NCBI RefSeq assembly: GCF_003688725.1
Contig: NZ_REFP01000009.1
Coordinates: 248,001-312,000, forward strand
Length of the DNA stretch: 64,000 nucleotides
Direction: 5' to 3'
Source: Thermoactinomyces vulgaris
Lineage (GTDB): Bacteria; Bacillota; Bacilli; Thermoactinomycetales; Thermoactinomycetaceae
Of the stretch, positions 49,464 to 50,457 are shown in pieces. The first letter of the stretch is position 1. Each line of letters opens with the position of its first letter. The notes under the pieces are model-generated. The model was not told the DNA's origin, did no database searches, and was given only the letters and a program-made list of their open reading frames with translations. The translations under genes were made by a program, and so were the position numbers.

Positions 49464-50045
49464 TTATTTGTGTTTCATGACTTGGTCGATCAAACCGTAT
49501 TTCAGTGCTTCTTCCGCACTCATAAAGTAATCGCGGTCGGTGTCCCGTTCAATTTTTTCCAACGGTTGCCCGGTGAATTCGGAGAGCAGCTTGTTCAAGC
49601 GGTCTCTGGTCCGCAAAATTCGTTTCGCCCGGATTTCTATGTCGGAAGCCTGGCCTTGCGCCCCGCCCAGTGGCTGATGGATCATGACCTCGCTGTTGGG
49701 AAGGGCAAACCGTTTTCCTTTTTTTCCGGCGGCCAGCAGGAATGCGCCCATGGATGCGGCCAATCCCACGCAGATGGTGGAGACATCCGGTTTGACGTAT
49801 TGCATGGCATCATAAATGGCCATTCCCGCGGTGATGGAGCCGCCTGGCGAGTTGATGTACAGATGGATGTCCTTTTCCGGGTCTTCGGCTTCCAAAAAGA
49901 GAAGCTGGGCCACGATTAAGTTGGCGACTTCGTCGGTCACCGGGCTTCCCAGCAAAATAATCCGGTCTTTCAAAAGGCGGGAATAAATATCATAGGAACG
50001 TTCACCGCGATTGGTTTGTTCCACAACCATTGGGATTAGATTCAT
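49464..50045 (-). CDS. clpP: ATP-dependent Clp protease proteolytic subunit
   Basis: A 193-residue serine protease forming the tetradecameric core of ClpXP/ClpCP. Catalytic Ser is in [10 protein letters not shown] near residue 98, His in MIHQPLGG near 123 and Asp in ERDTDRDYF. The N-terminus [19 protein letters not shown] matches known ClpP, so the ATG at 50045 is firm. In-frame stop codons TGA and TAG immediately upstream exclude a longer N-terminus. A CtsR box precedes it, but the strong ribosome-binding site is 34 nt from the ATG, separated by a hairpin (see separate feature). Confidence 0.98.
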
Positions 50046-50087
50046 CTATCAGGGATGCACGGATCGTCCGGCACCCTTCCCTCCTTT
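50046..50087 (-). promoter_or_regulatory. clpP ribosome-binding site with structured spacer
   Basis: On the minus strand AAAGGAGG (50087-50080) is a strong Shine-Dalgarno sequence. Between it and the ATG lies a predicted hairpin (50076-50052): outer pairs GGG:CCC, then UGC:GCA, then CGGA:UCCG, with two single bulges and loop CGA. Excluding the hairpin, the spacing is 9 nt. No other ribosome-binding site precedes the ATG. Confidence 0.7.
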
Positions 50088-50152: not shown

Positions 50153-50182
50153 ATGATACCCCAAAGGTCAAAAAAGGTCAAA
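50153..50182 (-). promoter_or_regulatory. CtsR operator and promoter of clpP
   Basis: The tandem heptads GGTCAAA-AAA-GGTCAAA (50166-50182, plus strand) are a perfect CtsR box. On the minus strand TTGACC (50081-side of the box, 50081 excluded; 50181-50176) is followed by 17 bp and TATCAT (50158-50153), so the operator overlaps the -35 of a sigma-A promoter. CtsR would repress clpP until heat or protein stress. Confidence 0.9.
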
Positions 50183-50224: not shown

Positions 50225-50457
50225 AAATAAAAGGGATTTATGTCATAAGGGGAATCCCATAAGAAAAAGAAGGGGGAGGACGAAGCTGGGACTTCGTCCA
50301 TAAACAGAATTTAGAAACAGAGAAGGCCTTTTCTAACGTGACGAAAAAGCTTTGGGAACAAAATAGTCTGGTTAGGAGGACCATTTACTTAACAGACGCA
50401 AGGAACAGAAAAAGAGTTGCAGAGAAAAAATTTTTTTTCAAAAGTTTTTTATCGCTT
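50225..50457. other. Unassigned 233-bp region with a second hairpin
   Basis: This AT-rich stretch lies between the creatininase stop and its terminator. It holds a perfect 8-bp hairpin GGACGAAG/CTTCGTCC (50278-50299, loop CTGGGA) and a GGAGG at about 50375 with no useful start codon. I see no gene; it could be a long 3' UTR. Confidence 0.4.

Follow-up and report, generated by a model that had tools for sequence, protein, structure and literature searches.

The clpP gene and its leader

The window, a stretch of 64,000 nucleotides from Thermoactinomyces vulgaris (contig NZ_REFP01000009.1, positions 248,001 to 312,000), carries on its minus strand a clpP gene whose Shine-Dalgarno (SD) sequence lies 34 nt from the start codon, with a predicted hairpin in between. 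The genome has two ClpP genes and one more distant ClpP-fold gene; the gene in the window encodes ClpP1. The features of the locus, in window coordinates, are as follows.

49464..50045, minus strand: clpP (ClpP1, 193 aa), from the open reading frame list, with a Pfam CLP_protease match (E 7.9e-91)
50042..50074, minus strand: possible GTG-started upstream open reading frame (uORF) of 10 codons, not conserved, whose TGA overlaps the clpP ATG
50046..50051, minus strand: linker TGATAG with two in-frame stops, read from the sequence
50079-50046, minus strand: linear SD-ATG spacer of 34 nt, followed by the clpP ATG at 50045-50043
50052..50076, minus strand: spacer hairpin GGGTGCCGGA-CGA-TCCGTGCATCCC of 10 pairs, with a possible eleventh (A-U, 50077/50051), from folding and covariation in relatives
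50080..50087, minus strand: distal SD AAAGGAGG, duplex with the 16S 3' end of -15.0 kcal/mol
50153..50181, minus strand: predicted clpP promoter of sigma-A type, TTGACC-17-TATCAT, overlapped by the CtsR operator
50166..50182: CtsR operator GGTCAAAAAAGGTCAAA (plus-strand reading), the only exact copy in the genome
50195..50224, minus strand: intrinsic terminator between the upstream gene and the clpP promoter, insulating the promoter

The leader predicted from this promoter is about 101 nt long and runs, from the SD onward, AAAGGAGG-GAA-GGGTGCCGGA-CGA-TCCGTGCATCCC-TGATAG-ATG. An earlier sequence-only reading had described a strong SD 34 nt from a firmly placed clpP ATG, with no nearer ribosome-binding site and no earlier start, and these observations held. 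No SD exists within -20 of the ATG, where pairing with the 16S 3' end reaches -1.7 kcal/mol at best, compared with -15.0 for the distal site at 50087-50080. Relatives with a normal SD share both the ATG and the N-terminus, which makes this ATG secure. TGA and TAG stand in frame directly before it, so that an earlier in-frame start, considered as a candidate, was rejected.

The hairpin was also recovered: the 10 pairs and two bulges drawn previously become 11 pairs and two bulges with the addition of the basal A-U (dG37 -14.9), while an alternative register of 10 pairs and one bulge is predicted at -14.4 and the segment 50052..50076 folded alone at dG37 -14.2. Taking out the hairpin as first drawn does leave 9 nt, and by the present folding about 7-9 nt lie outside the stem. 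The spacer is more stable than 99.3% of its dinucleotide shuffles (p = 0.007). A scan of 388 long open reading frames, drawn from the window and a further 400 kb of this genome, gave clpP as the sole gene with a hairpin-bridged distal SD and no normal SD, a rate that is to be read as a lower bound given the strictness of the scan over these 464 kb.

Transcription of clpP appears to follow a familiar pattern. A tandem heptamer operator lies over the promoter and matches exactly, as in the CtsR regulon, and CtsR itself is encoded elsewhere in the same genome by a gene with a normal SD. Two further observations concern the surroundings of clpP genes. Another hairpin, GGACGAAG..CTTCGTCC, lies at 50267-50310 of the window, in the intergenic region between clpP and a creatininase-like gene; a pyrimidine-rich tract follows it on the minus strand, and it is possibly a terminator. 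The second clpP (ClpP2; L006, L007 and other loci) has an ordinary SD and a terminator-like GGCACGT..ACGTGCC hairpin upstream, and a CtsR box was not found in the 150-nt stretch read at these loci.

Distribution and geometry of the hairpin

In 22 genomes of the family, clpP1 was located and its leader read in the orientation of the gene. An SD-hairpin-ATG arrangement with no proximal SD (none within -20) was found in nine of them, from seven genera (G000, G001, G019, G009, G010, G007, G008, G018 and G005). Twelve leaders lack the hairpin and place an ordinary SD before the same ATG or a neighboring one. In the one remaining genome (G012) the spacer is long but forms no stable hairpin (p 0.59), and an in-frame ATG lies 9 nt after the SD. 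Hairpin and proximal SD are mutually exclusive (Fisher p 3.4e-6, uncorrected for kinship), and two changes at most on an RpoB tree account for the division into hairpin and plain genomes. Relatives using a normal SD at this same ATG, which the sequence-only reading had expected to count against it, do occur, but only in lineages without the hairpin; because they are confined in this way, they support rather than refute bridging. In the other families of the order, and in the other Bacillota and other bacteria read, inspection found no SD-hairpin-ATG arrangement at clpP, and the gene there has ordinary spacing or no clear SD.

The geometry is more regular outside the stem than along the sequence. 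Linear spacing ranges from 26 to 40 nt in eight hairpin genomes (mean 34.3, sd 4.4), and the distance outside the stem is 6-10 nt in eight of the nine (mean 8.4, sd 1.4). The outlier is G018, with 1-7 nt according to the number of basal pairs included. A strong distal SD is kept in all nine hairpin genomes, and SDs are stronger in hairpin than in plain leaders (-14.0 vs -10.1; Mann-Whitney p 2e-4, uncorrected for kinship). The lower stem, GGGTGC/GCACCC, is kept in sequence in several genera, and the loops vary from 3 to 13 nt and share no common sequence.

In six of the nine hairpin leaders (G000, G001, G019, G010, G007 and G008), any in-frame start codon between SD and ATG is closed off by a stop. 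An in-frame ATG at good SD spacing is present in the spacer of G018 and G005, and an in-frame GTG in that of G009; judged from these sequences, some of the three may use an extended clpP start, and the N-terminal extensions predicted for them are unlike one another. Counting G012 as well, the in-frame ATG or GTG codons of G018, G005, G012 and G009 (L093, L098, L100 and L091) could give ClpP an unrelated N-terminal extension of 7-10 residues.

Covariation of the spacer stem

Compensatory changes, which had been proposed as a check on the hairpin, were found in the leaders of relatives. They are two-sided at four pairs of the lower stem: pair 1 (GC to AU), pair 4 (UA to GC), pair 7 (CG, AU, GU and UA) and pair 8 (GC and AU). 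These pairs were counted on a hand-made structural register, as MAFFT misplaces the 3' arms of G000 and G018. When arms were exchanged between leaders, own arms paired better than swapped ones (mean -13.4 vs -8.5 kcal/mol), and none of 100,000 permutations was as good. A pair counter applied to six MAFFT rows gave a covariation score reached by 10 of 500 shuffles, and sliding the partner destroyed the score. The clpP covariation as a whole rests on eight distinct hairpins from genomes that are related and not independent.

The same arrangement at other genes

A covariance model (R1) built from six clpP leaders was searched over the order and 300 Bacilli genomes, and matched clpP leaders and those of two other genes, an htrA-like protease gene and glgC. 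No second R1 copy was found in the genomes of the clade, which is weak evidence against a repeated element, as the fast filters also missed the clpP leaders of G000 and G018; these score 17.6 and 12.7 bits with R1 unfiltered. No Rfam family reached its gathering score at the clpP, htrA or glgC leaders tested.

In a sister family, five of seven htrA-like genes have a GGUGY..RCACC stem between a strong SD and the ATG (L236-L240). Four of these five hairpin leaders also contain a uORF of 11-15 codons that starts with an ATG in or next to the stem and ends in an ATGA over the gene's start, and because of it bridging and translational coupling are indistinguishable at the htrA-like genes.

The glgC series is larger. 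In a distant Bacilli family, 28 of the 30 glgC leaders read (about 60 nt before the ATG) show SD-hairpin-ATG with 18 distinct stems (L244-L273), as counted by a script on the predicted single-hairpin fold. Wholly different stems are among them (GATGAAGG..CCTTCATC, CGGG..CCCG, GAGAAAA..TTTTCTC). Linear spacing is 22-35 nt and the outside distance 9.0 +/- 1.1 nt, and covariation is strong, with swapped arms pairing far worse than own arms (-3.1 vs -8.6; 0 of 20,000 permutations).

Function of the clpP hairpin

It is most probable that the hairpin is a structured spacer that bridges the distal SD to the clpP AUG, a reading drawn from sequence comparison and folding. On the 30S subunit the stem would stay folded as the strong SD pairs with 16S rRNA, so that the AUG, 34 nt downstream, would effectively lie about 7-9 nt from the SD and clpP would be initiated there. 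Ribosomes would thus initiate with the stem folded, and unfolding of the stem would be expected to lower clpP translation. Control would otherwise be by ordinary CtsR repression of the clpP promoter, with temperature sensing by the stem neither needed nor predicted. In the predicted folds of full leaders, the SD itself is partly paired in G000 and some others.

The sequence-only reading had arrived at a structured spacer restoring the SD-AUG distance, with T4 gene 38 as its parallel, and this part of its interpretation stands. It had gone further and proposed an opposite-sign thermosensor, in which translation would fall as the stem melts in the heat, whereas transcription would rise through CtsR derepression. 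The gene does lie under a perfect CtsR operator, and melting of a bridge would in principle reduce initiation, but the proposal now seems highly improbable. The stems of nine species have predicted melting temperatures of 84-100 C and are predicted to remain folded at 65 C, with nearest-neighbor energies of -3.4 to -8.5 kcal/mol at that temperature. When the G000 leader was folded at several temperatures, as had been suggested, predicted stem occupancy in the whole-leader ensemble was nearly flat, at 0.76 at 37 C and 0.75 at 70 C. In G009 occupancy falls from 0.95 to 0.53 in the leader context because of competing folds, and the prediction in context is therefore not uniform. The sister clade, moreover, retains CtsR boxes without any hairpin, and the architecture is also present at glgC, which is not a heat-shock gene.

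Another reading gives the stem to a uORF: the SD would serve the GTG inside the stem, at 5-nt spacing, and the terminating ribosome would restart on clpP at the ATGA. In this genome the uORF exists, running from the stem to the clpP ATG (GTG CCG GAC GAT CCG TGC ATC CCT GAT AGA TGA), and the comparable ATG uORFs of the sister family's htrA-like leaders lend the idea some weight. Among relatives with the clpP hairpin, however, the frame opened by the GTG continues into clpP in G019 and the congener G001, the GTG is in frame in G009 and G005, and the frame ends directly before the ATG in G010; the spacers of G007 and G008 contain no ATG, GTG or TTG and still keep the hairpin. No conserved uORF was seen at glgC in the leaders inspected. 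Coupling is not the conserved function at clpP, because the frame and start of the uORF vary and are lost in relatives while the stem stays, and as an explanation it is very unlikely.

The stem might instead be an operator through which clpP is regulated by a protein or small RNA, with its role as a spacer not primary. Conservation of the lower stem GGGTGC/GCACCC in several genera and the recurrence of GGUG..CACC at htrA and glgC would fit such a site, although R1, having been built on clpP stems, favors matches with GGUG-like stems. Neither the length nor the sequence of the loop is conserved, entirely different stems occupy the same place at glgC, and an operator leaves the near-constant outside distance and the missing proximal SD unexplained, so that this explanation is unlikely. 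Finally, the structure could be neutral or due to chance, and initiation could depend on a feature other than the distal SD, such as an unstructured AUG. The case for bridging consists of prediction and comparison, which gives this possibility its opening, but the covariation, the exclusive distribution and the strong distal SD in nine of nine genomes make it extremely improbable.

Probable structured spacers in Bacilli and those of phage T4

With bridging as the preferred reading, clpP displays the marks of a structured spacer: a distant SD without a proximal one, a stable hairpin in the spacer, and compensatory changes in that hairpin. Its assignment, from sequence, as a chromosomal case of the class represented by T4 genes 25 and 38 is strongly supported. 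In the literature found, structured spacers are documented only at these two phage T4 genes, and the glgC series suggests that the class is commoner than the two examples. The clpP and glgC cases suggest that folded spacers are a regular way of setting the SD-AUG distance in Bacilli. In many Bacilli the ribosome has no typical S1 protein and depends on strong SDs, and ribosomes of this kind may be tolerant of such stems.

There is roughly an even chance that chromosomal start sites with hairpin-bridged SDs recur in Bacilli as an unannotated class, at clpP, glgC and perhaps htrA, in which the through-stem distance read by the ribosome would be nearly constant at about 9 nt and some members might be switched by stabilizing or opening the stem. 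These cases bear on start-site prediction, which considers linear spacing only, and they provide a natural series of stem lengths on which the accommodation of structure between SD and start codon by the 30S subunit could be tested.

The clpP hairpin resembles RNA thermometers in being a leader hairpin of a heat-shock gene. In RNA thermometers, however, the SD or AUG is hidden within a structure that opens when heated, whereas the clpP SD and AUG both lie outside the stem, which is predicted to stay unmelted at growth temperatures. The closer likeness is with phage T4. At gene 25 a stem reduces the distance from 27 nt to 11, as supported by mutants and by DMS probing, and the structure is restricted to one clade of T-even phages (PMC3014915); the clpP hairpin is likewise found in part of one family. 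The gene 25 site is a probed phage junction between genes 26 and 25, whereas the clpP hairpin, described by sequence, lies in a leader with its own CtsR-controlled promoter. At gene 38 a hairpin between SD and AUG reduces 22 nt to 5, and at both T4 genes destabilizing mutations reduce initiation (PMC3014915). As is predicted at clpP, the gene 38 hairpin brings a long SD-AUG spacing to a functional one; gene 38 is a phage gene with a shorter spacer, whereas clpP is a chromosomal gene in which 34 nt would be brought to about 9 by a hairpin that covaries in seven genera.
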